From: Ulva prolifera
Taxonomy: Eukaryota; Chlorophyta; Ulvophyceae; Ulvales; Ulvaceae
Assembly (NCBI GenBank): GCA_023078555.1
Contig: CM041196.1
Location: forward strand, 4,661,658-4,725,657
Length of the DNA stretch: 64,000 nt
Direction: 5' to 3'
Numbering within the stretch: the first letter of the stretch is position 1; each line of letters begins with the position of its first letter. The notes beneath the pieces were generated by a model. The model had not been told where the DNA came from. It did not search any database and saw nothing but the letters and a program-made list of their open reading frames with translations. A program made the position numbers and the translations under genes. Positions 2,960-36,724 of the stretch are shown here, piece by piece.

Positions 2960-4176
2960 CGGGGCTGTAGCCGCGGGTGTGCCAATAATTTACAGGACGG
3001 ATGTATTCCCTGTGTCAAATAACCAGAATGGCAGGGTGACGACCGTTTGTGGGAACTTTCTCTAATATTACTGAGAAGAGTGCTTTGCGCACCAACTGAG
3101 GAGGTGTGGGCTGTCTCACAGTGCAGTGAGAAGCTAGTGACTATATGGTGAATCGATGGGCATGGGCATACCGGTACAGCTCTGTTTTCTCAGAGCGCTG
3201 TTCTGGGTTTTTACGTGTGGAGGTCGTGGTATGGAGTTGTGGGTATGGGTGTCACGAGTGTTGCTGTGCCGCCCTGTCGAGCGTGACGATAGAATGCGAG
3301 CATTCATGACAAGGATGGGTGAACGAATGATGATTTGATGCGCGGTCCGCGCCAGTAGATATAGGTATGGTAGACAGGACCTGTGTGGGTAGTCAAATGA
3401 AGAAGCAATGTAACAGTGTAGGTTAATGTGTGCGCTTGCAGCGCTGTGCATGCTGTGCATGCTGTGAATTATGCTGTATTTCACCTGCAGCTAGATCTCA
3501 CAGCCGGACACACCGATGTCACCCCCGAGTGTTCCCTGAACACCAGACTGCAACTACAGGCCCGGTGCCACCGTGTAGCAAGTGCCCGCAGGAGCATGCC
3601 ACGCATACAGATCATCGCTCCACACGTACACCCGCAGCGCCCTTGTGGACACGAATCCGCCCATAGACATGCATGCCTGTGGAATCCCACACAATCCGAG
3701 AACAAAGGTCATGTGTGAACACTGCTGTGTCCTGCATCGACAGGGGTGTGGCAGACGGCGGCAATGTGCATGTTTCGCGCGTGAAGGTACCTAGGCGGAC
3801 GCTGAAACTCACATCGGGGCACACCACGAAGTGCTCTCGACCAGCACAGCGCGACAGTGTCATCCACGTGAATGCTGTACAACAATGGACAAGTGGCCAC
3901 CGCCGCGTTTTGCCACTGCTGCATCCTCTCTAGATGACAACCTGAATGCATCGGTTCAGCGGAAGCACGCCAGCTTCACAGCTGTGTGCAGGGGTGTTCC
4001 GCTGCGGCAGCCGTTTGGCCACCGCGGCCAACACCAGGTGCACCGCTCCCGGCCGTGCGCCCCATGCATCGCTTGCTCGCCTGCAACTTGAATGTGGTAC
4101 AAGGACTAGGTGAGCGAGGCGGGTAGCACCGCGCGCAACAACCAGCCGCAGGGGAACCACACACAAACGCAACCAG
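2960..4176. other. 3' untranslated/intergenic DNA between kinase gene and transposon
   Basis: No open frame here resembles a protein family on either strand. The stretch includes the probable 3' UTR of the kinase gene, up to the TGTAA at 3409-3413. It then continues as ordinary mixed sequence up to the left terminal repeat of the CACTA element. Confidence 0.5.
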
Positions 4177-4195
4177 CACTAGGAGAATGGCGACA
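4177..4195 (+). repeat. Left terminal inverted repeat of the CACTA element
   Basis: Nineteen bases (CACTAGGAGAATGGCGACA) match the reverse complement of 21761-21779 perfectly. Identity stops immediately inward: CGGTG on the left versus TTGCG on the right. Confidence 0.9.
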
Positions 4196-4199
4196 CGGT

Positions 4200-4510
4200 G
4201 AATCGGAGAGCTGACGTAGTGTGTGCGGAGGGGCAGTTGGAGAGCCTTCGGAGAATCGGTGGAGGCCGGACGTAGGTTGCACGGACTATCGGGGCAATGT
4301 TGCGGAGGTGGGCAGGATGTTCCGTTTCCCGTCCGGTGAGTCACAGGGCAACGCTCGTTGCCTTCAGCCTCTCCGTCGGAGCTCCATTGGACGTTGAACG
4401 GAGGAAATCACGGATCCGTTGGCCGTCCGACGGACGGAGAACGGAGGTTTGCATAAACTGCCTGATCCGGTCCGCATACGTATGGCGTCCGACAGGGGGC
4501 GACGGACAGC
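4200..4510. repeat. Left subterminal repeat zone of the CACTA element
   Basis: The zone is dense in CGGA/TCCG words. Examples are TCTCCGTCGGAGCTCC near 4371-4386, CGGATCCG at 4411-4418, GTCCGACGGACGG near 4425-4437, GATCCGGTCCG near 4464 and CGTCCGACAG near 4487. CACTA elements typically carry short subterminal repeats bound by their accessory protein. CGGATCCG recurs twice in the right subterminal zone. No gene is seen here. Confidence 0.6.
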
Positions 4511-4996
4511 AAGGGCTGGGCCGTAGTCCATGGTGATTTCTGACGTGCGGCTTGTGAGGCATGTCACAAAATGTCAGGCATGTCACGAATGGTTCGTTAC
4601 TCGTGGACACTGATACATTCGTGACTCGACCCGTGTACTTGTAGACACGCAGCAATGAGTCGCCAAGAGCGTGCTGGGCGTGAGTTGCATCAATTGACAT
4701 GTACATGGTGTTGTGTTCGGCGTGCACGCATGCGCACGTGCACGTGCTTTGATTGGGAATCTAGTGTTGACCATTTGGGGAACGTGAATACGGGACTGGA
4801 ATTGGCTGCTTGCCTGAATCAGTGATGTGTGTGCTTACATTGCCTGCACTTCCCACATTCAGAGCAAACATTCTCAGTCAGTCAGAGCAAACATTCTCTC
4901 CTACAGGGACACTCAACATCCCGTAACACGATATGCACCCCACCGGGAAAAGGCTCTATGGTGGACGATCAACCAATATTGCCCGAAGTGCCTTCG

Positions 4997-7506
4997 CTAC
5001 TTGTAAAGCAATAAGGAGTCTTGGATCTTAACCAACTCCGCCTGCAGGCATGACCAGATGCATGAGTCAGGGGCAATCATCCGTGTCTCCCAGACCACCT
5101 GGGATCCATTCGTGGTATGGGTTAATCATATGCAAGCAATGATTTAATACAGACTTTGGTGTTAAATGTAGTATCAACTGTATCGAATCAAGATTGACGT
5201 ACCGTGAATAGCGCAATATCATCTTTTAGTTTCTTCACTTCCGGTTTCTTACTCGTGGGCCGATATGCCGCCAGCCGAGTCTCGTACTCCATAATCTTTG
5301 TCTTCAACTCATCACGTGCTTCTTCGTCAGCTTTCTTGTCGGCCTTGGCCTTTCGCCTCGCGATCGCGTCTTGAGACTTCTGCATCGCGCAAGAGCTCTT
5401 CCAGCTGGCAGGGCATTGGACGGGGCAATTACCCACGGACAGAGATATCAGACACAAGCAGTTATCTGGAGAAGCCGTACCGGTGCCATGGCTTGCACTT
5501 CCATCTCCGGTGAGGGGCTGCGTGCGTCCGCAGGCTGATCAGGTTCGGCCTCTTCATCCGACGCGGCGGGATCTGCCTCGTCCGCTTCCGGCTGCTGTTC
5601 ACTGTTATCATGAACGGGTTGGTCTGCCCTTGATCGTCGCAGGAGTGCTCGTGGTGGGGATGGCAGATCGTCGAGCACCTTGCGCCGTCCTGTGTTGGGA
5701 TGACCTCCCTGTCTCGATGCCTTGTTTGCGGTAGGTGCCTGCAGGCGCGCCTGCTTGTCTCGGTCGATGTCACAGGTAGAACATATTAGTGGCGTAGTCA
5801 GTACAGGGTGTCAGGTGGAAGTACCTTCCCACTCTTTCTTGGTCTCTTGCCAGGCTTCATGGGCGAGTCTGCGGTCCCTTCGATAGCGCGTCGGGCCCCA
5901 GTGATTGCCAGGAGATTTTCGCACACATACACGCCGTCCTCCATTGCCCATGCCTCGGGCGTTTTCAATGGTTCGTGGTCTATTGGGGTCCGGTCTCCGC
6001 TAAAGGTGAACTGCACAGGCTCTTGGTACGTCGCGTGCAGTGCAATACAATGCATGACGCGCTGGAGTAGCCATTCGGCGAATGGCTACTCCAGCCGCGT
6101 GCAGTGCAATACAATGCATGACACCGCACCGAGTGGCCATTCGGCGAATGGCTACTCCAGCCGCGTGCAGTGCAAGACAATGCATGACACCGCACCGAGT
6201 GGCCATTCGGCGAATGGCTACTCCAGCCGCGTGCAGTGCAATACAATGCATGACACCGCACAGAGTGGCCATTCGGCGAATGGCTACTCCAGCCGCGTGC
6301 AGTGCAAGACAATGCATGACACCGCACCGAGTGGCCATTCGGCGAATGGCTACTCCAGCCGCGTGCAGTGCAAGACAATGCATGACACCGCACCGAGTGG
6401 CCATTCGGCGAATGGCTACTCCAGCCCCTGCCAAGGAGAAGTACGTACCTTGGATTCCGCAGCCTTGTGCAGTGCCGCGAGCAGATGGGGCTCTTTACGA
6501 TACGATTCCTTCCTTCGCATCGCCACGTTGTGGTCATACGCCCGTCCCGGAAACTTCCTGCACACTCGGTAAACGCCCCTCAGGTTGCCCATATCGGGCC
6601 CGGGTCGCAACACCACAGCTGCGTCAAAACAAGTTGAAGACTTAAGCGTCGAAAACTTAAGCATTAAGCTGCGCAGCGCACTGTTTGTTCTTGTTGCTGA
6701 GACAGCCAATCTGACTGTAGAAAGCGCTGCTGATATTCCTCGCAGCGACGTAAGCAGGGCCAGTTTTTCCGTCCTGTACAGAAGATCTGTCAGTAAATAC
6801 TGCACGCATGTATTATCACGGACAGGATTCAGGAGCTCGCACAATAGGTCGGCAGCCACAGGTGCTGGAGGGCTGACCGCGGACGACATGTTCCAAGCAC
6901 GTTGTTATTCTGACATGGCTGTCGCACCCCTGCTGCTGCTTTCCTCAGCGCGTCCGCGTAACCTTTCGTCAGCATGCTGCCTGGGTACATCCTCTCGTCT
7001 GCTGGGGCGTCCTCGTTGACGAGTGCAGCCACCAGCTTTCCTTGTTTGTCAGCCTCCGCCATGCGAGCGACTTTTTTCTCCATCCCTGCCGTCCACATCA
7101 GCACCCCATCCTTCATGCGCTTCCACTTCTCGTCATCCTCGCCCGCAACCGTGGCGGTTGAACAGGCAGTGCCCTGCGCTGTCGGCGTTGCTGCAAAGCT
7201 CCCTCTCCCTTTCCCCAACGGCTTCACGAGCACGGGCGACACAAGCACACCGGCTATGGTGCCTTTCTTGAAGAAGTACAACACGCAAGTCTTCAGTTTC
7301 TCTTGACTGTCGATGTCGACGGTGCTGTCCTTGTCAACCGTCGACGCCAGAGTTAAACCGTCGTTGCCGGCGCCTCTGCTCCATACGTTGCTCACCAGCA
7401 CATCGAGCATCCCTCCCCCGTCCTCTACATCCTCTACATCATCTACAACCTCTTGCTCGATCACGACCGGCGAGGCGCGATGAAATGTAAACTGGAGCTT
7501 GGTCAT
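4997..7506 (-). CDS. CACTA-element gene of unknown function with coiled-coil C-terminus
   Basis: Start is ATG at 7506. Frame-keeping exons on the minus strand are 7506-6928, a second exon ending at 6449 (start unclear, about 6600), 6010-5825, 5750-5481, 5379-5203 and a terminal 5041-4997 ending in TAG. The donors at 6449, 5825, 5481 and 5203 are all GTAC-type. The N-terminal exon (193 residues) has an acidic stretch (VVDDVEDVED) and a later Lys-rich region. The middle has PGKRPRKSGK, then an acidic Glu/Asp-rich linker. The C-terminal exons form a charged helix with KADKKADEEARDELKTK and a heptad-like tail, probably a coiled coil. A TGTAA signal on the minus strand (4839-4835) follows the stop. 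I recognise no family. Position inside the element suggests an accessory or DNA-binding role (inference). The intron 6448-6011 contains the 66-bp palindrome array. Confidence 0.65.
6032..6430 (+). repeat. Tandem 66-bp repeat with six palindromes
   Basis: Six palindromes repeat at exactly 66 bp; the GGCT of each right arm starts at 6084, 6150, 6216, 6282, 6348 and 6414. The first (6061-6095) is perfect, with 17-bp arms around one central base. Its core is GCCATTCGGCGAATGGC. In the other five the left arm has GAGTGG instead of GAGTAG, a change a G-T pair would tolerate in RNA. Spacers contain GTGCAGTGCAATACAATGCATGAC-like sequence with A/G variants. Because 66 is a multiple of 3, several shadow open frames cross the array. 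It lies within an intron of the element's left minus-strand gene. Confidence 0.92.
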
Positions 7507-7823
7507 ACTGCGGTATTCGACGTAGATGTTTAGACACTAAGAGACGCAACGGCAGTAGGTGTTATTGTGAATCAGTATCAGACATAATAGTCCTGGCGTG
7601 CTGTGCTGTGTTGCGCTTTCACTGGTAAGGCAGTCAAGCGTCGTTGCGGTGTCTGCCTTTGAATACCGGTCTGCCTCGATATCCCGGCGCACGTCCCGTC
7701 GCCGTGGCGGCCAGGCGTTCTGTGTACGTGTCGCTGTACTCTTTCGACCTGAATGCGGTTGTCCTCACAGTAGGTGCCAGAGACTCAGGTAGCCTTTCCA
7801 CCCCTTTCTGCCGGCCGCTGGAG
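7507..7823. promoter_or_regulatory. Divergent intergenic region, probable shared promoter
   Basis: This 317-bp gap separates the start of the minus-strand element gene (7506) from the proposed start of the plus-strand transposase (7824). It is the only place for both promoters unless further 5' exons exist. No convincing TATA box was identified. An in-frame upstream extension of the transposase frame exists, from 7644, but has no zinc finger or other recognisable content. Confidence 0.4.
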
Positions 7824-10800
7824 ATGGCCGCATCCAGAAGGACGAGGGATGAGGTCGATGCCTTGATGGGAGAGATTAACTGTAAGCGTCTACTCCGTCC
7901 AGAGCGTGTGGGGAAGGAGACACTTAAATTCCAGTGTCAAGCCTGTGGTGAGAAGTTCGTCAGACATACCACCGCTCAAAACCACTATGAGCCTTGCCAA
8001 AAGCGCTTGAGGAGGGCCCCCGCGGCCCGTGCCAAGGGAGCCGCTGGTGGCCACGATGGGGCAGGTCCATCCTCGCGGCCACCTACGCCATTCTCCTCCG
8101 CTACCCTTGGGGCTGACGTCAGCGGGGTTCCCGATGGGGCTGGCCCCTCTTCGCCACAGCCCATACCCCCTGCGCTGGCTTGCCACCCCAACCATCCCGC
8201 CAACTCTGACGACCTTTTCGCTGTGCGAACCCCTCCATGCATCCCGGCGCTCTAGGCCCGCGTGCCTTGCCTGCTGTTGTATGGTCTGACAGTGACTGGT
8301 GTGGCCCATGTGTGGGCCCGCTGTGGACCCAGGCCGGGCGGTGCGGCTGCCCATACCTGCATCTGCAGCTACTGCACTAATTCGCGTGATTTTACAGCTG
8401 CCCCCACCCTCCGACATCGACGAGGCCGAGTACCCCGCCCGGGATACAGACTCGGACTCCTACCTCTCAGACGCTTCCTCCATCCCCTCTTCGTCCGAAT
8501 CAGAATACAGCACGGACGGGTCCGAGGTGTGGCAACTTTAACATCGGGGCATGTTACGTCGTGTCTCCCCTGGCGTGCTGATTTCCCAGGTCGCATGTGT
8601 ATCCCTCTTGCAGGACGATGACGTCGACAGCCCCCCCCCAACCACCGGGGCCCGGAAGGGCTCAGGAGCCTGGTGGCATGAGCAACGAAAGAAACACATA
8701 TACACCGGGAGCGTCCTCACCGTACTTACGGTGTGCATGTGGATTGCGCAGTTGAAGAGCCTCTTTCGCATACAAGACGTGGTCGTCGATACATGGTGCA
8801 GGTTCATACATTACCTCCTGCTACCTGATGGCAACTTTTTCCCACCCTCGTTCCACCTCGTCAAGGCAGTGCTGGATGTCCCGGATGTGTCGTCCGTGAC
8901 GCGGCACGTTTGTCCCCAGTGCTGGGAACTGTTTCCTGAACTTGATCCAAGTGACCATCAGCATCACTTGGAGGACACCTGTGGCACACCTGGATGTACA
9001 CAGCCACGGTTCGATGTCGACCTCACGGGAAAGGGTGTCCCTGTCCGCTCTGTCTTCTACTTTGGTGAAGAGGCCTCACTGAAGGACCTCCTGCTGCAAC
9101 CGGGGCTGCTGATGAGCATCCAAGAAGCCAGGGCAGCAGCGATCGAGGACAAGACCAGCTTCATCAACTCCCCTGCAGGAAAGGCCCTGGACGAAGCATA
9201 TGGGAACAAGATTACAAACCCACAGGCCGGGGAAGTCGTTCTGCTGTTCGGTCTCGGTGTGTTCAGCCCTCCCCATCTCTGTCGCTCTGCTTTCTGGGAA
9301 ACGCAGTGAATTGTGTCCCTTGGTTGCCTCACCACTCACTTGCAGGGGGGGATGCTGCACAACTGTATGTCAACAAACAGCACGGCGTCACGATCTGGGG
9401 GATCCGCCTGCTTGATCTCCCGCCCCATCTCGCATGTACTAACGAGGCCTGGATTCCCCTTGGTGTGGTGGAGGGTCCATCCGAGCCGACATGCATGGCC
9501 AGCATTCTGGAGTCCGTGGTGGCGTTCTTCAAAAAGCATGATCGGGGCGCGCACTCACCTTGCCTGCCTGGCCACTGGCGCGTGATGTGTACAGTTCCCG
9601 ATCACGTAGTGTCTGGCCCCCGCACCATGTGATGGCTTGAATGCAGGAGCTGGGGGTAAGGCACTCAAAATCACACTGCCAGGGGGCGAGGTACTGTCCG
9701 TTTGGCCGGTGCTCTGCTGTGTGGAGGGGGATATCCCCTGGCTGGAGAAGCTTACTAACAGCATCGGTCATACGGCCAAGAGGGCATGTTTCAGATGCGC
9801 ACAGAACGGCGTGTGGGTGTTCGCCGCCAACACTGTGAGGTGCGTAGTGTCTGCGTCCAGGCACATCCCACGCCTGCCTGTCTTGGCCCTAACGTTTTCT
9901 TCCAACCACTCCTCACCTGCGTGCAGGTGGCTTGGACACCATCGCCCTCTACAGCAGCCCGCCCCCTGCTATGTCAACGGGCCTCTGAAGGGGAAAACTC
10001 TCACTCCAGAGGAGGAAGCTGCAGCATCGACGGCAACCCCGCGGATGGTGGCCGGGAGTGTGCAACCCGACGCAGGGGGCATCCCCCCGCGGACTGCGTG
10101 GACTGAACCGCAGCCGGTGCCACCGAGTTCATGGATGTCAGACAACCGACTGAAGTACTCGGCAGCGGAGATCATGGCCAGGGGCAGGAAGGGCGACAAG
10201 ATCGCCGCCCAGGTGCAGCTTCGTATGCTCGGTCCCTATTCCCCATTCCCGGACTACTGCATTGATCGCTCTGTGGCCACTCCATCTCGATGTTCACCAT
10301 ACTGTCGCCAACACGACCTGAAAGCCGTCTGACCAATGCCACTAGCAGGTGGCGCAGACGGAGTGCCATTGCACCCCCGCAGGAATTCCTAATGCATGGG
10401 TGGGCGTTCAGGTGCATACTCCGACCTGGGATCGATTCCGCAAAAAAGACACGCCGGAGTTAAGGGCTAAGCTCGCCAAGGATGAGTACAAGCTATTGGG
10501 TGTGAAAGGGTCCCCGCTGTTCAGCATCCTCTCCTACTTCAAGTTCGCCCTGCACCCTCTGCCGCGTGCTGCTCCCTGCCTTGCCTTCGAGTCAATTTTG
10601 TGCACCCCATCATGCGTCGCGTGCAGCCCCTGTCATTTTGTTCGGCTTGGAGTGGCGCACGTCTTCCTGCTTGGAGTTCTGATGGACTTCTGGAACCAGT
10701 GGCTCCCTCCCCTAGGCAGGAAGAAATCCAAGAAGGCGCCCCCGACAGGGCCCTGCGCCCTGTACCGGTTGCCGGAGGATGTTGTCAAGGCGATCGCCGC

Positions 10801-12337
10801 CAGAGCTCCCCATATAATGCAGACGTCTCTTTTCAAGAAAGTGTACACTGACATCACCAAGTGCGTCACCTATGCCGTCAGTTCCTAGGCTGTGCCGACA
10901 CTTCCCCTGCCTGTGGAGGGGCCCACCTGTAGCCGGTCATCGCCGTGTCATCACCTCTGCATGAATCACTTGACGGAAGGGTCTCCTGCAGGCACCGCAG
11001 TCGGTGGCTCATGGAGGACTGGCTGGCCTTTACTGAGACATTCTCCCTGTACCTCCTACACAATCTCCCGTGGAAGCCGTCCGAGTTGCCAATTCGGAAA
11101 GTGTTTGAGCAGATGTGGGGGCTCCTGCGATCAGGGGCCCTGTATTTCCTCAGATATGAATCGGGGCAGCACACACCAGCCCGGATCACACAGGCCCAGG
11201 GGACGCTGCTGCAGTACGCCAAACTCGCGGAGGAGACGTTCGAGGGTAGCTGCTATCAGTACCTACAAGCTGCATCTGGCGGCTTGTCACCTCCCTGATC
11301 AGGTGAGGTGTTGCGGTGCAGCCTTCTTCAGTCTCGAATTCTGGATAGAGCGGATGGTCCAGCTGCTGAAGAGGCTGATCAAGTACCGTTCCACTCGTTG
11401 TCCAGAGCAGGTGTATGTGAACGATGAATTGCTTCGTCGAACTTGCATGCGGTTACTGCACGATGCTGGCACAGTGAATGCAGCAATGACAACTCTGTCG
11501 GATGCCATTGCCACCGAAAAACGCCGGAGGGCGCGAACGCGCAGTGGCAGGTCAGCACCCGAGCAATCTCTTGATATTGACCGGGTTACCGGCCGGGTGC
11601 ATGGTGCTGGCAGGGAGCTGTCTCTTTCGGAGTCAGCCGAGGTGCTCCCTCTGGACTTCAACGGAGGGGCCATTTCCGGGCTGCCGTACCTCCTCCTCCA
11701 CCAAGACTCCCTCCAGGAAGAGGGCTGGCCTACGCACCGTCGCCTGGGGGCGGGCCATGCCCGCCGGGTGGCTGTCACCCGGGCTATCGGGTTGCCGGTG
11801 AGAGGTTCTGTAGATGAAAGTCGCAAGGAGGGCACAGTGACCCTGTGCAAATTCCAACGGGTACAGTCCCGCGTGGGGGACGTCTTCAGCAGTGCACAAC
11901 AGTCAACACAGGGTAAGAAGGATAATAAGTGGTGCCTCGTGAAGTACCTTATTGAGGGGGGTCGGGGAGAGGGCGGAGGGACAGTGACGTACTACGTAGG
12001 GGAGCTGCAGTACTTGATGCGGGCGACGTTGCAGCCCCGGGACGGGGTCACCTGCGTGTCATGTGTGCACGAGCCCGACCCCTTGTATCTGGGGGTTGCC
12101 GACCTGTATAGGAGTACGGAGCCAGTCACACCCGGAGCCCGCGCGCCGGACCCCGTGTTGGGGCGGCCCCCCGAGTTTTTTTGTGTGGCGGGTGCACACC
12201 GTGGGTCCAGGGCGTATGAAGGCAGATACGTAATAGACGTGGATGCTGTGCCCTGCCAACTAGTCCCCGTCAGAAGTAGTGTACAATGTGTGCAGTATTG
12301 GGCGACTGCCAATAAGGCTTCTGGCCGCACGGTGTGA
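7824..12337 (+). CDS. CACTA transposase (Tnp2-type) with BED-like zinc finger
   Basis: A multi-exon gene. Exons with clean phase are 7824-8222, 8398-8526, 8614-9256, 9346 to about 9600, 9647-9812 and 9927 to about 10270. Later exons lie near 10348-10560, 10627-10887 and 10992-12337. The N-terminus has a C2HC/BED-like finger (CQACGEKF, then NHYEPC), followed by an acidic Ser-rich linker. The Tnp2 region includes HVCPQCWELFPELDPSDH, GGDAAQLYV, VTIWGIRLLDLPP, VEGDIPWLEKL, KRACFRCAQNGVW and VAHVFLLGVLMDFW. Candidate catalytic acids lie in GGDA and EGDIP. The C-terminal part (DWLAFTETFSLYLLHNLPW, then CHLPDQVRCCG and EFWIERMVQLLK) resembles the domain after the catalytic core in plant Tnp2/DUF4218 proteins. 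Between about 11245 and 11260 the frame changes by one base with no usable intron. TGTAA lies at 12354-12358, right after the stop. It would bind and cut the element's ends in the nucleus. Confidence 0.82.
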
Positions 12338-12665
12338 AGGACCCTTGCTGTCATGTAAACTATCCCTTCTGTCCCTGAGGGACGGATCATCTGGGACCAA
12401 GATGGACCGAGACGGGTCGTGTTCAGCGTCCACATATGTACACCGGTGGTCGCCTGCCTCATCCAGTCCCTGTGCTCAGTGCGCGTGTAGCCACATGTGG
12501 CCTTCTTCGACCACCGGCGTCGCAATCGCTAGCGCATGTCGTCTCCATTGCACAGAATACTACCTGTCGATTGTGCAATCGTCTTTGCCAGTGTATGTTG
12601 ACAATGACGAAGGAGTGAGGTTTCATTTCGCGGTGAATCTCAGAGTACTGTCGTCGTGTGCAAGT

Positions 12666-15600
12666 ATGATGTCGGCTGGGGCCTTACGGACATTGATAGC
12701 TAAATTAGACAGTAATGAGTCGTATGAGAAGTCTTTCTATCGATTCGTGAAGGCCGCAGAGAGAGGAAAGTGGACGCCTGGGCAACCCATCCCAGAGATA
12801 TCGCTATGCGACAGGGACGCGGGATTCCCCGTCGATCTCATGGGTCTTGGCTACGTTCTTACAGCAGCAGACATTACCATGGTGGGATGTGTGGTAGCAG
12901 CCGGTGGGGATGGGCTGGAGATGTACCTTGATTCGATACAGGCGATGAAAGAAGCGGCAGACGCAGTGACCCCGACGGACAACGACTCCTACGTAGAGTG
13001 GAAGATGGTGTCCTTGTGGCATGACCTTCGAGCACTCGCGTTCGAGCGCGCGGTCCGTACCGAGGCCCCGTGCGAGCCCCCAGAGATTGTGTTGTATAGA
13101 TCGTGCCTGGACACGGTGGGAGTGGGGGAGGATGCCGGCGGCGCCCGCGAGCGTGTGCTGCTCACAGGCGGGACAGAGAGGATACAGGAATGGGTGGAGC
13201 GGGAGTCCACGGCTCCGCGGAATCCGGTACCGAAGTGGCCAGCGGCTGCAGTAACGGAGGCCCCGCTACAGGCACCGAGGATGGCAGTGCAGATCGATCT
13301 GGGGGACGCCGATCGCTCGAGTCCGGTGGGAGCTCCGAGGCACGCCATAACCTCGGGACCCGAGGAGGACCGTGCTTCGGTGCAGGCTGATTCCAGCGTC
13401 GGCAGTGCATCGGAGGGCGGGGCCAGGGGAGGGCGTGGTCACCGGCTCAGGGGGCACGGGGGGAGGCCGGTTCGGGGTGGGCATGCCCTTAGTCGTGGGC
13501 AGAGCCTACAACAGCCAGCACGGGGGCGAAGGGGGGGTCATCGTGGCAGGCGAGGGGGTGCTGCCGCAGTAGAGCGGGCCTTGGGAAGTCAGCCAGCCAA
13601 AGGGGGGGAGCACGCGAACCCCCAGGCCGATGGGGGGCCCCAGACAGCAGAGCCGCCTGAGCAACTACAGCCCGGCACCCTAGAGGCACCTGCCTCCCCA
13701 CCCTCCAGGACCACCGGATGTCTGCCCCCACCGCTGGAGGGCTTGGGTCCATCACAGGCCGCCCCGCCCGCGCCCAAGGCGTCTGTGCTGCCAGGTGGGT
13801 CCAACCAAGAGCCTCTCCCAGCAGCAGGAGAGGACGTCAGTCACAGCGACACCTCCCACCACTCTGGTGGAGGGGTGGTAGCGGGCGCGGGCCCGTCTGC
13901 CGGGCCTGGCCCCATTGCCCCCAATGCGGCCGGGTACAGCGCGGCCACCCCCATCCCCGGCGGCGCAGACCCCACGGCGCAGCCACCCGCCGACCCGTCC
14001 GGGGCTACCCCCGGACTGGTGGGGCCGAGGCTGCCTGCCCCCCACCAGGGAGCGGCCGATCGAGATGCTGCTACCATGGCTGAAGGTGTCGGGGTGTTGT
14101 CCGTCGCACATCTTGCCCCGCCTTTGTCTGATCCTCCGGCGTGGGTTTCAAACCTGCCAGCCAAGCCTCGGGCGAAACTGAAGCAGCTGTGGTCGCCCAT
14201 TGCTCCAGGAGCTGGCGCCGTACAGTTGCATGGGGGGGAACCTGCGACGGAGATTTCCTCCGGCGAAGACGACGAGCCATCTCTACCGACGGGGGGCGTC
14301 TCGGTGCAGCTGGGTCACTTCGGGGAAGCTAGGGTGTTTGTGGAGGTGAGCTTGGATGCCATCGGGAGAGGCTGGCCCGAGGAGTGGCTGGAGTCGACCC
14401 ACGTAGATTATGCGTGCGCTAGATGTGTGCAGCTGGCAGGTGGGGGTGTCATCGCAGTGCCTAGCCAGAACATGGCTAGGGTGTGCATGGGGGATTCGGG
14501 AGCAGAATGGACTGAAAGCCGCTCCGTCGCCTTGGGGAGCTGGCTGCACAAAGCGCATGCATTCGAACACGATAGCATCCTCGTCCCAGTCCCGCGGAAC
14601 GGCCATTGGGCGTTGGCTGTCGTATGGCATCCATGTACGCTCCCTCGGCTGACCATGCCTGTGCAGAGTGTTAGGTGGGCATATAGTCCTCTCACCTGGC
14701 GGGGAGGCCCCTGACTGTCAACACACATTGTGCTAGCTTGATGCAGGGCTCATGCTACAAGACCAGACCCCGAGTATGTTGTTTTTTGACAGCTTCACGG
14801 AAGCCGGGCCGGGCACAGCTGAGCGGGTGCAGGACGCCCTAAGCGAGGCCCTGTGCAGGGCTCTCGACAAGGCGGAGGGCAGGGCCCCCGCTCATGCCAA
14901 CCCCCCCCCAAAGCCCCAGTCACTGCCGGCAGGACAGGGCCGGCGACACAATGTTAGATTGGTCACCCGGCCGACAAAAGGAACGGCGAGGATAATGCTG
15001 AAGTTGTCGAAGGTTCGAATCTCACTGTTAGACACGCAGCTTAGAACGAGGCCTAGCAGTCCCTGAAATCTGCGTACAGCGAGTCGGATGAAACAACAAA
15101 TGACCTTGTAGCCCCATTACAATCCGCATCCCGGCCCCACCCCTGACAGCACCCCACTGGGCCGTTCCATCGTTCTGGACCGTACGTTGCATCGGTTACC
15201 CGATGTCACCTCAGCCCCCCCACCAGACCCCACTGTGGAGTGCAGGTCGCCGGAGTCCCGCAGCAACCGAACGGCCACGACTGCGGGGTCTACACAGCTT
15301 TAATGGCCGACGCGCTATGCCAGGCTATGAGCGAGATGCGACAGGAGGGGGGGGACATGTTGCGCAGTGATCAGCACGGCGTGGAAATGACTCGAAGGAT
15401 CCTTGTTCGCACAAAGCTCATCAGCGTGCAACACGCGGTTTTGTACCGTATCCTCGTCACCCGGGCACTCATACAAGAGTGGCACCGGGGTGGGAGAGGT
15501 GGCGATGTGCTGGGCCGCCTATCCGCGGAGGATGCCACCAACATTCTAGCCGACGCGAGATGGGACCGCCACCTGCAGTCTCCGCCCTTTTCAAACAAGA

Positions 15601-16056
15601 CCGAAGAGGAGTTGAGGTATGCACCTCCACACCCAACTGTGATGAACAGGGCTACCTGTTTCCCTCGATGCATCTCGGCGCAGTAGGGTTCCACAGGGGT
15701 AGCAGACCCATTAAGTATTCAGAATCTCGGGAGAGCTGCTCCCCCCCCCGCCCCCCCCCCCACCCCGCAACGCCGCTGTATCAAGACCGTCTCACACGAG
15801 GGACTACCTGACTGCAGGCATGTGGTATCTCCGAGCGAGTTTTGACGCCTTCATGGAGGAAGCAAAGCCGCACGTCAAAACACTCTGCAGGCAATACAAC
15901 CAGCTTAATGGCCAAGAACCTGCAACTGCGTCGCTGAGTCATGAAGACGTGGACATCATCGCCGGTAGGATCACAGGCATAGCCAAGCAGCCGGTGGTGT
16001 GCTCGCCAGTCAGGTGGCAGGGATCCTGTATGTGCCACTGCTACTGTAGGCCATAG
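12666..16056 (+). CDS. Ulp1-like SUMO protease domain protein (C48 family) of the CACTA element
   Basis: Proposed start is ATG at 12666 (MMSAGALRTL); the frame is open further upstream. Exons 12666-14634, 14747-15012 and 15246-15616 join in frame. After an unrecognised N-terminal domain comes a long Pro/Gly/Ala-rich linker with RGGRGHRLRGHGGR-type basic repeats. The protease core follows. VPVPRNGHWALAVV gives the catalytic His, MLFFDSF the Asp, and GVPQQPNGHDCGVYTALM the oxyanion Gln region and nucleophilic Cys. This order matches the C48 triad. The C-terminus is unsettled. Splicing 15616 to 15818 meets a stop at 15843-15845, while the adjacent frame 15820-16056 (ASFDAFMEEAKPHVKTLCRQ and onward) looks coding, so a frameshift or missed exon is likely. 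TGTAA lies at 16217-16221. Ulp1 genes are known passengers in some plant DNA transposons. Confidence 0.75.
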
Positions 16057-16825
16057 GAAATGGGGCGGTGGCCACAGGGTCCCTTTGGCGAAGGGGCTAC
16101 TGTAGAGGTTGACATGTCAAATCTCGACCTAGGGTGTTGGACTGCCTATCGGTACAACGGATACACCAGAAGTTGTACACCGAGTACTGAACTTGTATAT
16201 TTGCAATATGATTACTTGTAATATGTCACATTTTGGACAGGTTGTACACTCGACAATACAGAAACGATACTCTTCAGCTATGATGTGAAGGACGAAGGGT
16301 AGCTTGTTCGCAGTGTATTGAGTACAACTGTAGAGGCCTAAGAAAAGCTCAACATTTGATACCCACGCTCACGCAGCCGCTCTGTCACATATGTACTGAT
16401 GTACAGCATGCCAACAGCTTACATTCGTTAATATTCCAAGGATCATCATCAGAAACTGAGAAACCAGCTTCGACAGCACAGAATGACTGCCTCCATACGC
16501 CCAACAAAACAAGGCTTAACCGCACGTCAAACCCCATGGGACCCCCCCCCCCCCCCCCCCCCCCCACCCCCCCCCCCCCCCCTGGTCACGGAACCCTGCT
16601 GCATGCCCACATACCCCCTGTAGTGCATCTTCGACCGCCGGGCACTCCTTTACAGTGCTCCCCTAGGTAGTCTGGCGTCCCTGCACTTGGAGAAGCGTCA
16701 CGCCGTAGGAACTACCGATAGAGGACAAGGCGGGGGCAGGGCGGAGCGGCGGTACAGGTTATGGGTACGGGGAGCATATGCAACAGTAGGGGGCTGGGGC
16801 AAACAGCTGTCACGTTCAGGGCAAG
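16057..16825. other. Convergent intergenic gap with poly-C tract
   Basis: The gap holds the 3' ends of the converging Ulp1-like gene and the right minus-strand gene. It contains TGTAA at 16217-16221 for the plus gene and a minus-strand TGTAA at 16654-16650. A nearly pure C run spans 16542-16582, broken once by A at 16566. Around 16068-16092 a degenerate relative of the element's palindrome is visible (GTGGCC, then GGCGAAGGGGCTAC). No gene is seen. Confidence 0.6.
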
Positions 16826-19800
16826 TTAATTGAAAATGACGGAGCATACCCGTCGGAAAAGCTGGATGACCTCCCTGACAGTGGCATCGTCGGGCTGAAG
16901 CCCATACAGCTGAATCACCGACATGAGGCTGGCAGTCAGTGCTTCCGGATCCGACTGCAGCCTGGGATTACTCATCATCATGCATTCGCAGGCCACCACG
17001 ATGAGCCGCAGTTGAGCAGGGCGCCCTATTCCATGTGCCTGCGAGGTGTCTAAGTAGGCGTCCACCCGCAGGTGGGTTTGCTGCGCTGCGGGATACTGGT
17101 CCACGGTCAGCTGCAGGCTGCCCTCTTCATCCTGCAGGTGGATGCCCTGGGACGGCGGGGGCCCCGGCATGAAGTCCTCACCCGCCTGATCATCATCCGA
17201 CTCACCGTCAAGGCCCAGACTGGAAAGACCGTCCGATGCTTCATCTGTAAGACGAACAGCGAAGGCGATGGCTGATGCATAGTCGGTGATGGCACAAGCA
17301 GCATCAACACCATCGCCATGGCCACCGACAGCTTCCCTTGCCCCTAATGCCGCTGGTCTCGCCTGAGGGGAAGATGGGTTGGCCAAACCCGGCCCTGCCG
17401 ATGCAACTCGGCTTGGGGCCCCACCCGACTGTGCAGCAGTAGGCACGGCACTCACCTCGCTCGGGCGGACCGGCATCCTGAGACCACATCCGAGGTCGTC
17501 TGGGGGACATGCCCCATCCGATGGAAGTGCTGCAGCTACAGCAGACGGCGCTGCTAGGCCCGGCGGCATGACAGGAGCCAGCGACTCGGGCGGCCTGCCG
17601 GCTGCTGGCGCTGTGGACTGAAACTCTCCGGGTTCTGCTGGATCAGGCACCAGGCCATCCTCACCCCCCCCCGCCCTCCCTCGGCTGCAGAGCTGGTCCT
17701 CCCTGCCCGGACATAGCTGCGTCAGCGCTGCCGAGCGGCTTAGGAGCCGCTGCCCCCCCCGCCCCCGCTCGGCTGCGGAGCTGGTCCCTCCCTGCCCGGA
17801 CACAACTGCGTTAGCGCTGCCGAGCGTGTTAGGAGCCGCTGCCCCCCCGCCCCGCCCCCGCTCGGCTGCGGAGCTGGTCCTCCCTGCCCGGACACAACTG
17901 CGTCAGCGCTGCCGAGCGGCTTAGGTGCCGCTGCCCCCCGCCCACCCTTGGCTGCGGAGCTGGTCCTCCCTGCCCGGACACAACTGGCGTCAGCGCTGCC
18001 GAGCGGCTTAGGAGCCGCTGCCCCCCCGGTTGGAGGGGCCGGGGTCCCCCCCTGCCCACCGGACTCCTCAGTGTCGCTGTCGCTGTCCGCGGGGGCACTG
18101 GCAGCCGTGGCTCCCTTTTCGGCTTTCCGGGCGCCCAGTTTGCGCAGCAACAAAGCCTTTCCGCGTGCAGTGGTGCCTCCCGCGCCGGTCACCCTCCCCA
18201 CTCCAGCCTTCCCACCGGCTACACGAACGCGCTTGTCAGCAGCAGCCTTCTCTGCTGCACTGCGCCCGACGCCGACCCCCCCCCGTGCCGGCACTTGGTG
18301 GTATGACAGGGGGGTGGCGGCTGTCCTCCGGGAGAGCGGCGAGGATGCCCGCGGGTATGTGGACGAGCTCGGCACTGCACAAGTACCAGATGTGCACCCA
18401 AAGAAAGATACACTGAAGTGGCCACAGGGTATTACATAACAAGTTGGGACACGTGGTACAGGCAATAGACACAGCAATGTAGTAAACAGATACCCGCTGG
18501 CACAGAAACACACGGCTTACGGGGTGTGCGCACTTGTAGCAGCTTGGACTCTGCATTCCTTTGGCGATTGACAGCTTTGCCAGTTCCACAGCGCCGGCGT
18601 ATCCCCAGTCCTTGATCTCAGGGAACGTCCCTGGCCTTAGGCGAACGGGGGTCGTGGAGACCGGCCTGCCCGAACTGCTCCCCGCGGAGACTTTATGCGC
18701 CACACTCAGGTGCCGCCAGCTCCGGAGCGCCCAGTGCCAGAGCGTGTGGGAAGGGCACAAGGGCAGCAGCTCGTCCACCAACCTCTTGACGGGAAGACCG
18801 TACCCCGACTTCACCAAGGCTGCACGCGCCGTGTGCGTCAGGTGTCCGCAACGCCTGCTCATTATTGGCTTGCCCCACACGAGGGGCTACTACAAGGCAG
18901 CACTGTACAGTGCACTGGCACCATGGCAAAAGAAAAGGAGACTGCGCACCGCTTGTATTCACCACGCACACCAGGATGGCGGCAAAGGCAGGATCCTCGA
19001 GGGTGGGCTCCATCGCTGGAACGTCCTCTTGGCACCGCGTTTCCAGGACAGGCGCCCCAGGATGGCCGGTCACTGCCGCAGCGACGAGGCGCCGGTAGGC
19101 ATGCATGAAGAGGTGGACACCACTTTCGGCAAATGCCGCCAGGTCCTCGGTGGTTCGCCGCAGCCCTACACATGCTCCCATAATTTGGGAGTAGCAGTTG
19201 TGGACAGAGCTCCACATGGGGCGGAGGGCTCGGGCAACTCGGTCTCCCTACACGGTTAGAACAAGGTGTTAACCAGCCCGGGGGGATGGACAAACTGGTG
19301 GAAGCCATAGCATAACGAAGTCACGCAGGTCAAGCTAACACTTACAGATGATTGGCGCATCGCACCCCTGACCTATCGAACAGCGGGTGCTCCGCCGCAT
19401 AAGCCAACACCCAGGGTGTTAGAGTGGAAACGGCGGAGACAAGGTCGCCGAGGCATTTCATATCCTGCACACAAGGAGGTCTGCTGGACAACTCGAGCGA
19501 AGCCCTGTGTCAGGGTAGGACCGAGGTGTCACTCGTGACGGGGACACCACAGCCACTACCATGCATGCGCGAGTGAAGGCAGTGCCCTGCGTACAACAAC
19601 CCGCACGAATACATGCAATGCTGCCAAACGACACAGCAAAAGTGTAAAGTCAGGAGCGCACGAGCGCGTGGATGAGGTCAGAGTGGAAGGATTCCACGTC
19701 CGCTAAGACCGGAGCGCCCGAGGTCAGCTGGTACACCGGGGTGGCAGGGACCCCATTTGTGTTGGCCAGCATTGCGTGACACCGGTCCCCAATGTGCCGG

Positions 19801-21009
19801 GCTACCGAATCGGCCGGCTGGAGCAGCTTTTCATTCATGCGGCTGAATCGGCTGCAGTGTGCGTTTTCGTACAGCACCCACGCTACCAGAGGGTTGAGTC
19901 CCTCTGGAAGGTTGGAGGTGGGTCTCTCCCTGCTCCGGCCTGCCTCGGCCCCCCCCTCCGCGGCACTCTGCTTCCCGGCGGTCCACAGTTTTGTGGCATG
20001 TGGGGACAGGCCGGAGACGTACGAAGCCCATGCCCACACAATGTGTCGGGGTGTTGAGCACCAGAACACTGCACCGACGACTCCGATTAAGTGCCTTACC
20101 CAGGACCTCTGGGACACGCCAATGAACTACAGGTACTGCAACTATGTACAAACGCGGTGGTGTTGGCGCGCACGCGGGGGCGCCAAAGGGACTGACTGCC
20201 GCAGATGGAACGTGAGCACACCGTCAGGAGGCGGGGGGTCCGGGCCTTTGCGCTTTTCCCCCACGTTGGCGTGTGGGATCTCAAAGCGCTGGGCCAGCTC
20301 CGGATCTCTTGCCTCGGTGATTGCTGTTGTCCAGACGCCTGAATCGGTTACCTGGCCGGTCACCCTAACCTGCACAGGTGGTGGCACTAACTCCTCACCC
20401 ACTCCGCACGTCGGCTGGGCCCCTTGTCAGTCAAACAGGCGGTGTCAGTCAAACAGGCGGTCGCAGCAGAGCGAGGGTGCAGGTCATGAACATGTGATAC
20501 CGCCCACGTGCCCAACAGGCCCACACCTCCGTCGTTCCCTTCAGAGGCTTCCACCTCCGGGGCTCCGTACACCCAACTGGGGTCTTCCCCTGTCCCTCCC
20601 ACGAGGACACGAGCAGAGTCTGCTCGTGGAGCCAGCCGGCGAACAGGAGGCAGGCTGTAATGATCACCTCCTTGGCCGTACCCAGCTCCTCGTCCCGACT
20701 GGCGACCACGGCGTCCCGCAATACCAACCCCAGGCCCCACCACACATCAACCCCAGGCCCGGATGCTGGACCACTTGAGCCACCGACGCGGGCACGGTCC
20801 GTAAAACGCCCGTCTCTAGTAATAAACGATCCCACTACTGGGATTCTCCTAGTGCGCATGCGGCCGACCAGTAAGTCTGCGCTGCGCGCGGAAGTCACCC
20901 CATGTTGGGTACTTGGCAGGCCTGCCACAGCTGCAGAATGGCGCGGATCCATGACTACAGGCCACAGTAGGAGATCAAATGCTTTTTCGCTAAAGCGATA
21001 ACTACTCAC
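16826..21009 (-). CDS. CACTA-element gene of unknown function with repeat-rich C-terminal half
   Basis: A multi-exon minus-strand gene proposed from ATG at 21009 (MSSYRFSEKAFDLLLWP) to the stop at 16826. Stretches that look coding, in order, are 21009 to about 20450, about 20377-20193, about 20120-19655 (NEKLLQPADSVARHIGDRCHAML), about 19257-18925 (GDRVARALRPMWSSVHN), about 18890-18535 (KSGYGLPVKRLVDELLP) and about 18290-16826. The last exon opens basic and Ala/Gly-rich, passes through a coding minisatellite (17683-18030), and ends in a helical domain (LRLIVVACECMMMSNPRL to VIQLFRRVCSVIF). I recognise no family. A minus-strand TGTAA lies at 16654-16650. Exon joins are approximate and the region could hold two genes. 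Position in the element suggests an accessory transposition protein, which is inference only. Confidence 0.5.
17683..18030. repeat. Minisatellite, four units of about 86-93 bp
   Basis: Units starting GGCTGC(A/G)GAGCTGGTCC begin at 17683, 17771, 17864 and 17950. Each contains CCTGCCCGGACA and GCGCTGCCGAGCGG and ends in a C-rich stretch. Unit length varies because the C-run length varies, so the frame changes between units. On the minus strand the units read as SADAVVSGQGG-like or LTQLCPGRE-like peptides depending on frame. Confidence 0.8.
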
Positions 21010-21760
21010 AAGCTGCGCAAATATGCGTTTAAACTCGACGTCCTTCCGACTGCCTCAAAGTGCAACACCAGGTCTGCTAAGAACGCACGCGATCAATACA
21101 ATCCTGCCTCAACAGGCTCTAGATAGATCTATCCTGTCCTTCTGCAAGAGTCAGGTTCGAGGGCACCAAAGCAGCTGCATCGTGCTCTCTCGGATGGGTG
21201 GATGACGTCATTCCACCAGAGTAGCCATTCGGCGAATGGCCACTCTGGACCAGCGCATGCATGCGTTATTGGAAAAGTATTTCGCAGCGCGACGACCCTC
21301 GCATAACACTGTTTTACCTGCTGCCGCGCCAGAACTGCAGACTATTCGTCCTGATCAAATAAAACATCCAAGAATACAGTGCCCGCCGCCTCCAAGTTCT
21401 GGCCACAACGTCACCTGCCCAAAGTCTTGCTCATGCCGTCCAACTCGAACATGCTATAGCACCGTCGTTGATACTAGCCATCTAAGATGCAAAACGAATC
21501 GTAGTAATATTGTATCTGCCCATCCACTGTGCGCAATAGCGTGGTCCAACGTGGCCTCGTAGCATGACAGCATCGCCCGCATTGACCAGCAGATGCCAAG
21601 TATACGAGCACGGTCCGGCAGATAATGGGCGTGTCAACGGATAATACGGCGCCAAAGTCCAAGCACCTCGGATCCGGTGACATCGGAACGCTGCCGAGAA
21701 GTGACGGAGAGTCAACGGCCTATCCGAATCTGTCGGACGACACCCGGATCCGTCTCGCAA
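21010..21760. repeat. Right subterminal region of the CACTA element with single palindrome
   Basis: No gene is seen. A 33-bp palindrome at about 21217-21249 has the same core as the six in the left array (GCCATTCGGCGAATGGC) with CCAGAGT/ACTCTGG flanks. Nearer the end, CGGATCCG occurs at 21669-21676 and 21745-21752, with TGACGGAGAGTCAACGG and TGTCGGACGACA between them. These match the word content of the left subterminal zone. Confidence 0.7.
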
Positions 21761-21779
21761 TGTCGCCATTCTCCTAGTG
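21761..21779 (-). repeat. Right terminal inverted repeat of the CACTA element
   Basis: This is the exact reverse complement of 4177-4195, ending in CTCCTAGTG. The sequence immediately outside (CCCCCACCCACACCCGCC) is the start of a repeat that also occurs at about 56807, where it is preceded by CTGCCGCTACCG. That locus is a possible empty-site relative. Confidence 0.9.
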
Positions 21780-22413
21780 CCCCCACCCACACCCGCCTTC
21801 CCTAGCGGGAGCCACGCCCCAAGTGCGCAGAGAGCCGGGCTGCCGCCTCTGGCACCGCCGCGCGGGTTGTGGTTACTGCCGCGCTTGACCGAGGCCCCTA
21901 GGCCTGCGTGAGGTGTGTTCTCCATGCATGCGTGCACCGTGTGCTGCCGCTGCGGGCGTAGGCTCAGGGTGGCATCACGCCACGGGACCGTGCAGCCATC
22001 TGCCCCTCTCGCACTTAGCTGGCTCTGCACTTAGCAGGGCAGGCTGTGTATACATTCTGTCCACGTGCGCCGACCGCGATGGCAGCACTGATTGTACAGT
22101 GGCAGCACTACCTTACGAGTAGCTACGAGTACCCTGCCTCGCATGCATGCGCGTTGAGTTGATGCTGCAGTTTGCGGAATACGTGACACAATCACATCAT
22201 GGCGCGACCTGTGATAAGTGTCAGGCTGACAGTGCATTCGTTTGTTACCTCACCCGCCCAGATTCTTTGCATCGCTGATGGTGCTTTCGAGCGCAGCACG
22301 CATCGCACTTTACATCGCGTTGATGCCAATTCACCCGATACCCCGAACCCGAGTCAGGCTGCTGAAGACCCTGCTTGACTGCCAGGTCGTGCGGTGCATA
22401 CACCCGTGTGGCC
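21780..22413 (+). repeat. Receptor-gene upstream flank repeat, copy 1
   Basis: This stretch is closely similar to 56806 onward upstream of the second NB-ARC/LRR gene, and also to 52755-53450. Shared landmarks are CCTTCCCTAG(A/C)GGGAGCCAC, TACTGCCGCGCTTGACC, GAGGTGTGTTCTCCA, CTCAGGGTGGCATCAC and CATCATGGCGCGACCTG. Compared with copy 4 it lacks about 450 bp just before GTGTCAGG(C/T)TGACA. It presumably contains the 5' UTR/promoter of the receptor gene; I could not fix a TATA box. Confidence 0.7.
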
Positions 22414-25400: not shown

Positions 25401-25539
25401 GTGCAACAGTCTTAAACAACTGCCAGAGGGCATCAGCGGCTGCAGCCAGCTACGGCCTCTCAATCTCAGTGGATGCAAGAGTCTAGCAGCTGTTCCAGAG
25501 GGCATCAAAGTGCAACTCCACAGCCTGGCGAGGGCGTGA
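22414..25539 (+). CDS. NB-ARC/LRR immune-receptor-like protein (NLR), copy with 14 LRRs
   Basis: A single exon of 1041 residues from the first ATG (MHPRMHLDLKADALQV). Residues 1-190 form an Ala/Lys-rich, helical N-terminal domain (KKAGENAGKAAGKAAGATLKK, then an amphipathic helix set). The NB-ARC domain follows. GAGGIGKTT at about residue 240 is the P-loop, VLLVLDDLW at about 325 is kinase-2/Walker B, SRLIVTTRS is RNBS-B, GRNPLALEVLGG is GLPL, and ECFMDFAMFPED is RNBS-D. YYMHDI at about 565 is the MHD motif. From about residue 693 there are 14 nearly identical 24-residue LRRs of the pattern LQHLDLSxCxSLTQ then LPEGISGCSQ. Plant NLRs of this layout are nucleotide-switched intracellular immune sensors; the ligand here is unknown. 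TGTAA lies at 26529-26533. All key nucleotide-binding residues look intact. Confidence 0.93.
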   Translation: MHPRMHLDLKADALQVMICGKEARKKAGENAGKAAGKAAGATLKKAIPLPIVSDVAGWAAEESIQWLVERGIAIGGHPKQCQKLLVQLSDEALLNAAHALDQLTDLPEFACHRSDYRALCDTLQEAEVLLLHVQHKPQRRWQRLVHSSKPKELRCSLQKFCKLDKSMQLFSTLKRMAGPVPTAPRIRFGRLPSMHPHRGPSSELPQCSEPALPKHVFQHSDDLVPLIDEQLKDNRNIGIVGAGGIGKTTIARAVFERARSRFDAAVWLTVGKDANDREMLRILEAAFVKLYPRQSVPFATAAEGLQALARLTHGGDERGRAVLLVLDDLWPWSQGRPLQLAALNFATQPSLRHDGSRLIVTTRSEETLSYLPRDPSTGEVTRMRELRIHKPGLLEEGPAKQLFCHHAFGSADADPPGYVPAAACSELLQSCGRNPLALEVLGGALRQCRTAEAWEEHLKVQKAQRAAGARDDAVTHTCATSVEILSPSLKECFMDFAMFPEDARVGEEALLHLFATHAPLYTPASVKAAAAKLEQLVSRSLVSRAVAPVFRRHHNHQHHTHEYYMHDILRDIALRLSMEDPERCISGSAHSHASSSLRYISLHQSAGHVADATIDPQLKVDGRRLRVCVVVDGASSHWGKQWCCLYAPRLQWLWLEFQGCAEETAGEYLCCWPMLRFLKMRLDHALASKVQMEGLGKLGKLEHLDLSGSKSVRQLPQGISSCSQLQHLDLSWCGSLKQLPEGISGCSQLQHLNLVLCKSLTQLPEGISGCSQLQHLNLSRCQRLTQLPEGISGCSQLQHLDLSWCKSLKQLPEGISGCSQLLHLDLALCESLTQLPEGISGCSQLQYLNLSRCQSLTQLPEGISGCSQLQYLNLSSCESLTQLPEGISGCSQLQHLDLSWCTSLTQLPEGISCCSQLQHLKLSCCKSLTQLPEGISGCSQLQHLDLSSCESLTQLPEGISGCSQLQHLNLSRCQRLTQLPEGISGCSQLQHLDLSWCNSLKQLPEGISGCSQLRPLNLSGCKSLAAVPEGIKVQLHSLARA
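24490..25510 (+). repeat. 72-bp tandem array encoding LRRs
   Basis: About 14 units of 72 bp (24 codons), most identical apart from the codons for the two variable positions before and after Cys. Typical nucleotide landmarks are CTGCCAGAGGGCATCAGCGG and CTGCAGCCAGCTACAGCACC. Because 72 is divisible by 3 and the antisense lacks stops, long shadow frames occur on both strands. Confidence 0.95.

Positions 25540-31716: not shown

Positions 31717-36724
<5,008 letters not shown>

Follow-up and report, generated by a model that had tools for sequence, protein, structure and literature searches.

Why should a transposon carry, inside one of its own genes, six long palindromes at one exact spacing? This question was raised by a 64,000-nucleotide stretch of the Ulva prolifera genome (the window; GenBank assembly GCA_023078555.1, contig CM041196.1, positions 4,661,658 to 4,725,657 of the forward strand), for which a preliminary description had proposed an internal array bound by the transposase or by an accessory protein, or else a structured RNA element. 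Having compared copies of the element across 88.9 Mb of genome, we regard it as likely that the palindromes constitute a subterminal cis-acting array, with putative sites for a protein encoded by the element, comparable to TNPA sites.

A CACTA-type element with palindromes near both ends

Among eukaryotic DNA transposons, the CACTA elements form a major class. As summarized in Table 1, the window contains one such element, and both of its termini (at 4177 and 21779) start with CACTA, as in other members of the superfamily. A 3-bp target duplication, a further mark of the superfamily, was found in 8 of 12 matched end pairs; the pairs lacking it were the window copy (CAG/CCC), L068/L071, L066/L067, whose pairing is uncertain, and L079, where 4 bp matched. 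Repeated motifs, the third mark, occurred in both subterminal regions, the right end of the window copy having one palindrome. PF02992 (tnp2/Transposase_21) was not listed in a scan of the separate frames, with exons unjoined, and a search for further terminus variants of the form CACTANNAGAATGGRNAC returned none.

Table 1. Coordinates of the features of the element in the window
Feature	Position	Strand	Remarks
CACTA-type DNA transposon	4177..21779		17,603 bp; ends CACTAGGAGAATGGCGACA / TGTCGCCATTCTCCTAGTG; recognized by terminal inverted repeat pair and related copies
Left terminal repeat	4177..4195	+	starts CACTAGGAGAATGGCGACA; contains common core GAATGGC
Putative left-gene intron, filled by array	6011..6448	-	GT...AG ends by eye; conserved flanking coding sequence
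Left subterminal array	6032..6426		six palindromes, period 66; centres 6078, 6144, 6210, 6276, 6342, 6408
First 33-nt palindrome of array	6062..6094		perfect 17-nt arms 6061-6077 / 6079-6095
ATGCATG word	6114..6120	+	terminal to the second palindrome, with 27 bp between the two centres
Conserved left-gene exon	6829..7503	-	identity mostly 85-100% in family A, 62-66% in B, 41-46% in C
Rightward gene region	7827..15686	+	one or several genes; start placed at the onset of family-B matches
Leftward open frames, right side	16826..21054	-	
TGACGTCA word adjoining right palindrome	21203..21210		
Right subterminal palindrome (seventh)	21216..21248		centre 21232; single in window copy
Right terminal repeat	21761..21779	-	complement of CACTAGGAGAATGGCGACA, ending 21779; contains common core

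The exact 66-bp period of the six left palindromes, as first described, was borne out by Tandem Repeats Finder on 6032-6426 (period 66, 6.0 copies, 96% matches) and by a repeat search of the window, in which the unit spacings were 66, 66, 66, 66 and 66. The units each contain one odd palindrome, about 33 nt long and with its centre at 6078 + 66k, together with one ATGCATG word; that of the first unit lies 25 bp ahead of its palindrome. The additional palindrome announced near the right end was likewise recovered by the repeat search, at 21217-21245. In total, 8 odd palindromes with an arm of 11 and no more than one mismatch were counted in the element, versus 0-1 in 20 first-order Markov simulations.

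Several other features were recorded in the window. C-rich tandem repeats (17664-18028, period about 89-92, four copies) lie within the element; beside it is an NB-ARC gene with 72-bp LRR units (22366-25539, by Pfam), and a further array, whose 72-bp unit is similar, lies at 59947-60360. At 31839-34573 there is a (CA)n array of 2.7 kb whose strand skew is extreme. The window copy is flanked by CAG (4174-4176) and CCC (21780-21782), while a copy on contig C9 (L068/L071, C9:360494-378281), 100% identical to it in the array as well as in the three frames tested, has the flanks swapped, CCC and CAG; an exchange between two identical elements would produce such a swap, and so would a mis-join of the assembly across the repeat.

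The left array occupies an intron

Placement of the array inside an intron of the left gene, also part of the preliminary description, was supported by exon-like frames on both sides (...RKEPHLLAALHKAAESK / FTFSGDRTPIDHEPLKTPEAWAMEDG...) and by GT...AG ends. The second of these frames is clearly conserved in family B (FTVRGDRFPIDSEPMKTPEAWAMEDG...), where the donor of the intron is non-canonical, the splice sites having been read by eye. Thus, the array appears to fill an intron. A protein-coding repeat was considered, since the 66-bp unit keeps both strands open, but the 64-bp unit of family B breaks any frame; because of this difference in period and the position between exon-like frames, it was rejected, and an AXH match of a minus-strand frame in the array (E 4.6e-6, below its cut-off) was consequently taken as chance.

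The rightward gene region includes a tnp2-like part with a weak DUF4218 match (E 0.032) and, at 15147-15686, an Ulp1-type C48 peptidase (Peptidase_C48 E 2.2e-4, above its cut-off). Its N-terminal frame, with a C-x2-C-x12-H-x3-C stretch seen by eye and a weak zinc-ribbon match, was less conserved between families than the other two parts compared (identity in B mostly about 50-56%, in C 30-36% among the matches listed). Of the leftward frames, 20449-21054 and 19650-20126 have relatives in one B and one C right end, the former with 65% identity over 177 aa in the B right end L016 and 33% over 160 aa in the C right end L074. The right palindrome lies directly upstream of these frames, 20449-21054 being the nearest.

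Palindromes recur at the ends of related elements

To judge from the genome searches, neither of the two observations named in advance as speaking against a function in the element, namely related copies without any array and a palindrome that is a common repeat unrelated to the element, was cleanly made. The array DNA gave 121 matches, the exact palindrome core GTRGCCATTCGGCGAATGGCYAC had 409 copies (reversed control, 0), and the 18-bp terminus was found at 252 sites with at most one mismatch (control, 0). We read 60 of the 73 perfect 18-bp termini among 100 places listed (of the 252 sites), and in 51 of these 60 ends an A/B palindrome (at most 3 mismatches) lay within 3.5 kb of the terminus. 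Of the 18 palindrome clusters on contig C1, 16 were within 2.6 kb of a listed CACTA terminus, versus a mean of 0.29 and a maximum of 4 in 2,000 random placements, and one of the two remaining clusters lies past the listed stretch.

The nine ends without an A/B palindrome were L024, L032, L028, L031, L039, L047, L048, L056, and L026. In six of them (L028, L031, L039, L047, L048, and L056), similarity to intact ends is lost 117-804 bp in, short of the usual array position, and L024 and L032 have C-type arrays instead. The alignment of L032 with the intact right end breaks off at 230, and we read L032, with its C-type array, as a C element inserted into a B right end. The diverged end L026 showed no palindrome in 3.5 kb. 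In L018, the left end is kept and its sole palindrome unit is degenerate; clean loss of the array was seen in no intact copy among the ends read.

Identical 100-bp flanks were shared by L021/L022, L040/L043, L047/L048, L065/L066, and L067/L068, so that these ends are not independent insertions. The last pair (C9:341.4 and 360.5 kb) consists of family-A left ends in opposite orientation, and the identity of their flanks suggests a possible inverted duplication. The truncated family-A left end L028 (C2:6205737-6209337) continues for 572 bp and is followed by about 72 telomere-like ACCCCTA copies and then a 168-bp tandem repeat, well within the contig.

Layout in families A and B

In family-A left ends, the first palindrome lies 1,876-1,899 bp in, and the period is 66. 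Six such ends have 5-8 units, L018 has a single degenerate unit, and the broken ends L028 and L056 have none. The family-B left ends L069 and L070 have their first palindrome 1,937 and 1,950 bp in and 7 units with a period of 64. Hence, of the array's conservation between copies, which the preliminary description had suggested checking, the period stood (66 in A, 64 in B) and the unit number did not. At right ends, the first palindrome is mostly 536-580 bp in (farther in L019 and L021/L022), and those with palindromes have 1-7 copies at spacings of mainly 102 or 110 bp. Family B was assigned to the right end L016 by its match to L009 (92.6% identity over 821 bp), a right end flanked by the same GAG duplication as the B left end L069. 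Helical phasing was rejected, as spacings such as 61-74, 93, 102, and 110 represent no single multiple of the helical turn.

The units also share fixed features. Of 200 A/B palindromes, 151 (119/148 right, 32/52 left) have ATGCATG on their terminal side at exactly -27, and 16 left ones have it at -25; most right-array palindromes examined were followed by TGACGTCA itself or by a similar word such as TTACGTCA. All 200 A/B palindromes have G or C as their central base, as do 90 of the 91 C palindromes.

A second palindrome design in family C

Family C, whose terminus is CACTAGGAGAATGGTGAC and whose transposase exon is 60-63% identical in the copies read, shares with A or B ends only the terminus and a few short stretches. 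Its palindromes, GAATGGTYGGTGG-S-CCACCRACCATTC, had 591 exact copies in the genome (control, 0) and are located near both ends, from about 2.2 kb on the left and at 0.5-0.9 kb on the right, likewise with ATGCATG, here at several offsets. GAATGG points outward from the centre in A/B and inward in C.

In the window copy, GAATGGC is common to both terminal repeats and the palindrome half-sites, as the preliminary description had noticed, and each design shares a 7-base word with its own terminus, GAATGGC in A/B and GAATGGT in C. Shuffled half-sites had an equally long shared word in 364-427 of 20,000 cases for each of four A/B comparisons (196-427 per case over A/B and C), which makes word-sharing by itself modest evidence. 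On inspection by eye, the likeness of half-site and terminus extended past the core, if gaps of 2 or 4 bases were allowed, in no more than some of the B-right and C-left ends, and no conclusion is drawn from it. Strict covariation of core and terminus was rejected, being broken by L024, whose terminus GAATGGCGAC has GAATGGC and whose C-type palindromes, GAATGGTCGG, have GAATGGT; the seventh core base thus need not match.

Exon identity falls to 40-42% in family D and 38% in family E. The terminus of the latter, CACTACAAGAACG (CACTACAAGAACGCC), is one that we take to be close to the plant En/Spm terminus, and no palindrome array was found in its left 4.66 kb. GTACAC occurs eight times, on both strands, in the first 700 bases of a family-E left end (L082, 842-1500) and is perhaps a different subterminal motif. 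A 169-bp tandem repeat of 5 copies (L083, C4:2806684-2812184, positions 1-842) adjoins a family-E left end.

The palindromes are conserved and symmetric

To locate conservation, the ends of families A and B were compared. Between the right ends L014 (A) and L016 (B), identity was 86% over bases 0-73 and 58% over 73-513, and it rose to 89% in the 66-bp palindrome block at 513-579, whose best 40 bases matched at 37/40 versus a maximum of 27 in 40 simulations; with the block masked, a weaker 31/40 patch was left. On the left, identity was 79% over 0-350, 58% over 350-1650, 74% over 1650-1833 (a stretch that includes the flanking exon), and about 87% in the array. Outside the array, A and B ends align at about 64% under gentler scoring.

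These comparisons bear on whether the array could be a functionless minisatellite inherited from an ancestral element and homogenized by slippage and unequal exchange. Such an origin would account for the near-identical units and for their variable number (one degenerate, otherwise 5-8, in family-A left ends). It fits poorly with the same palindrome at both ends among different spacers and periods (64, 66, 102, and 110 bp), with a single right palindrome of an A copy that is so much closer to B over 66 bp than its surroundings are, and with a second family having a differently built palindrome at similar places. We consider this explanation highly improbable.

Symmetry statistics were computed on all distinct rows, 43 A/B and 33 C sequences. 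Paired cells agreed with dyad symmetry in 89.5% (A/B) and 92.2% (C), versus 20-56% with a slid partner. The covariation score was reached by 5 of 500 shuffles in A/B and by none of 500 in C; the A/B value is soft (0.096 versus 0.080-0.084 for slid versions), and the counts of changed pairs and pair types fell within the shuffles (121 and 294 of 500 for A/B, 280 and 153 for C). Covariation is not proof by itself, because kinship can beat shuffles without constraint and template switching can correct palindromes.

The same data are relevant to an action as RNA, whereby the array, transcribed within the left-gene intron, would form hairpins that affect splicing or feed small-RNA production for self-silencing or dosage control. 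The array does fill the intron, which folds with a z of -10.5 versus shuffles, and arm covariation is clear in family C and weak in A/B. However, strong folding and covariation arise from any kept palindrome, whether DNA site or RNA, and the hairpins would have a one-base centre. Moreover, the right-end palindromes sit outside the left gene, an RNA role predicts neither mirrored placement at both ends nor a core common with the terminus, and no Rfam match was obtained at gathering scores over 4000-22000. An RNA action is thus unlikely.

Short copies keep the left array

TNPA-type sites would be expected to persist in non-autonomous deletion derivatives. Of the two short copies read, L078 (6,027 bp) and L079 (6,511 bp), both keep the left array, with 10 and 15 palindromes, respectively, at a distance of 1.25-2.3 kb from the left end, and near their right ends none of the left-array type was found. 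With the 15 window frames, tblastn gave no match in either copy (E 1e-4), a weak test for family C since the C-left pieces L072, L075, and L077 were likewise matchless, and no exon or N-terminal-frame match fell inside them among the matches listed in the genome searches.

These copies are informative about a purely regulatory platform, a silencer or enhancer of element genes that acts through an element or host factor and is dispensable for movement. The left array lies in a gene and the right palindromes lie upstream of leftward frames, as such a platform would have it, and TGACGTCA-like and ATGCATG words recur; these words presumably resemble plant bZIP and B3 sites. Yet the left array persists in two short copies in which no genes were detected, and such persistence is not required of a purely gene-regulatory site, and the palindromes share the terminal core. 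We judge a platform of this sort to be quite improbable.

Proposed role of the array

Taken as a subterminal array of protein sites, the palindromes would each be bound by an element-encoded DNA-binding protein, probably as a dimer. The many sites near the ends would load this protein, which would help bring the ends together for transposition, and the bound protein could also repress or tune transcription of element genes, given that the left array is in an intron of the left gene and the right palindromes are upstream of the leftward frames. Since the core GAATGGC/T is common to both, the comparison suggests that the same protein or domain may also read the terminal repeat. We infer protein binding, dimerization, the identity of the binder, and a role in excision or regulation from sequence comparison.

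The originally proposed binding array gained from recurrence of the palindromes near both ends, the conservation peak at right ends, dyad symmetry, a terminal-core match in most copies read, and the left array of the two short copies, binding itself being put forward on these grounds. Against it stand the core mismatch of L024, the one degenerate unit of L018, and the palindrome-free 3.5 kb of L026, as well as the right ends of L078/L079 and the left 4.66 kb of family E. The sites are also deeper than classical TNPA sites, lying mostly 536-580 bp from the right end and about 1.9 kb from the left end instead of about 200-300 bp from both.

A bolder version, which we offer tentatively and consider rather doubtful, is that one protein reads both the terminus and the internal palindrome array, and that A/B and C re-engineered the palindrome while re-matching the terminal core. 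If true, one genome would hold a natural series of specificity switches involving a transposase together with its loading platform.

Comparison with known CACTA elements

To our knowledge, the manner in which the many subterminal sites work together with the terminus has been established for few CACTA elements. The genome studied here offers two palindrome designs, with 409 and 591 exact copies (1,000 in all), spread over families that differ in core and spacing. Families and short copies permit site number, spacing, symmetry, and core matching to be compared from sequence only, and these features are also open to simple binding and excision assays.

In maize En/Spm, TNPA sites are located within about 200-300 bp of the ends and are not known to be related to the 13-bp terminus, and separate proteins read the terminus and the subterminal sites. 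These sites are 12 bp long, in contrast to the 33-nt palindromes of Ulva. The likeness lies in multiple subterminal, cis-acting sites, and En/Spm deletion derivatives move if the cis sequences are kept (PMC2613891).

Soybean Tgmt*, as described in the same source, is a 20.5-kb CACTA element with a 3-bp target duplication, and it resembles the Ulva element in being large and in having asymmetric subterminal repeats able to form palindromes (2 left, 12 right), which were proposed as sites for a TNPA-like protein and whose motif differs between subfamilies of one species (PMC2613891). In Tgmt*, the repeated motifs are 17 bp long and extend no farther than 159 bp (left) and 732 bp (right) from the ends (PMC2613891), whereas the Ulva element has 33-nt palindromes in units of mainly 64, 66, 102, or 110 bp, with onset at about 0.55 kb on the right and 1.9 kb on the left, a partner word ATGCATG, and a core common with the terminus.

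Chenopodium CACTA elements are similar in their mirrored tandem repeats at the ends and differ in that a palindrome array or a terminus-matched core is not mentioned in the part of the report available. Tpn1 of Japanese morning glory is reportedly a CACTA element with tandem repeats at both ends. No report of the present array was found in the open-access literature searched, as far as its accessible parts go. Thus, palindromic subterminal repeats (soybean Tgmt*) and mirrored tandem repeats at CACTA ends (Chenopodium) are already known, and what is distinct here is the combination of long palindromes in tandem units deep within the ends, a partner word at a fixed distance, and a core that also occurs in the terminus.
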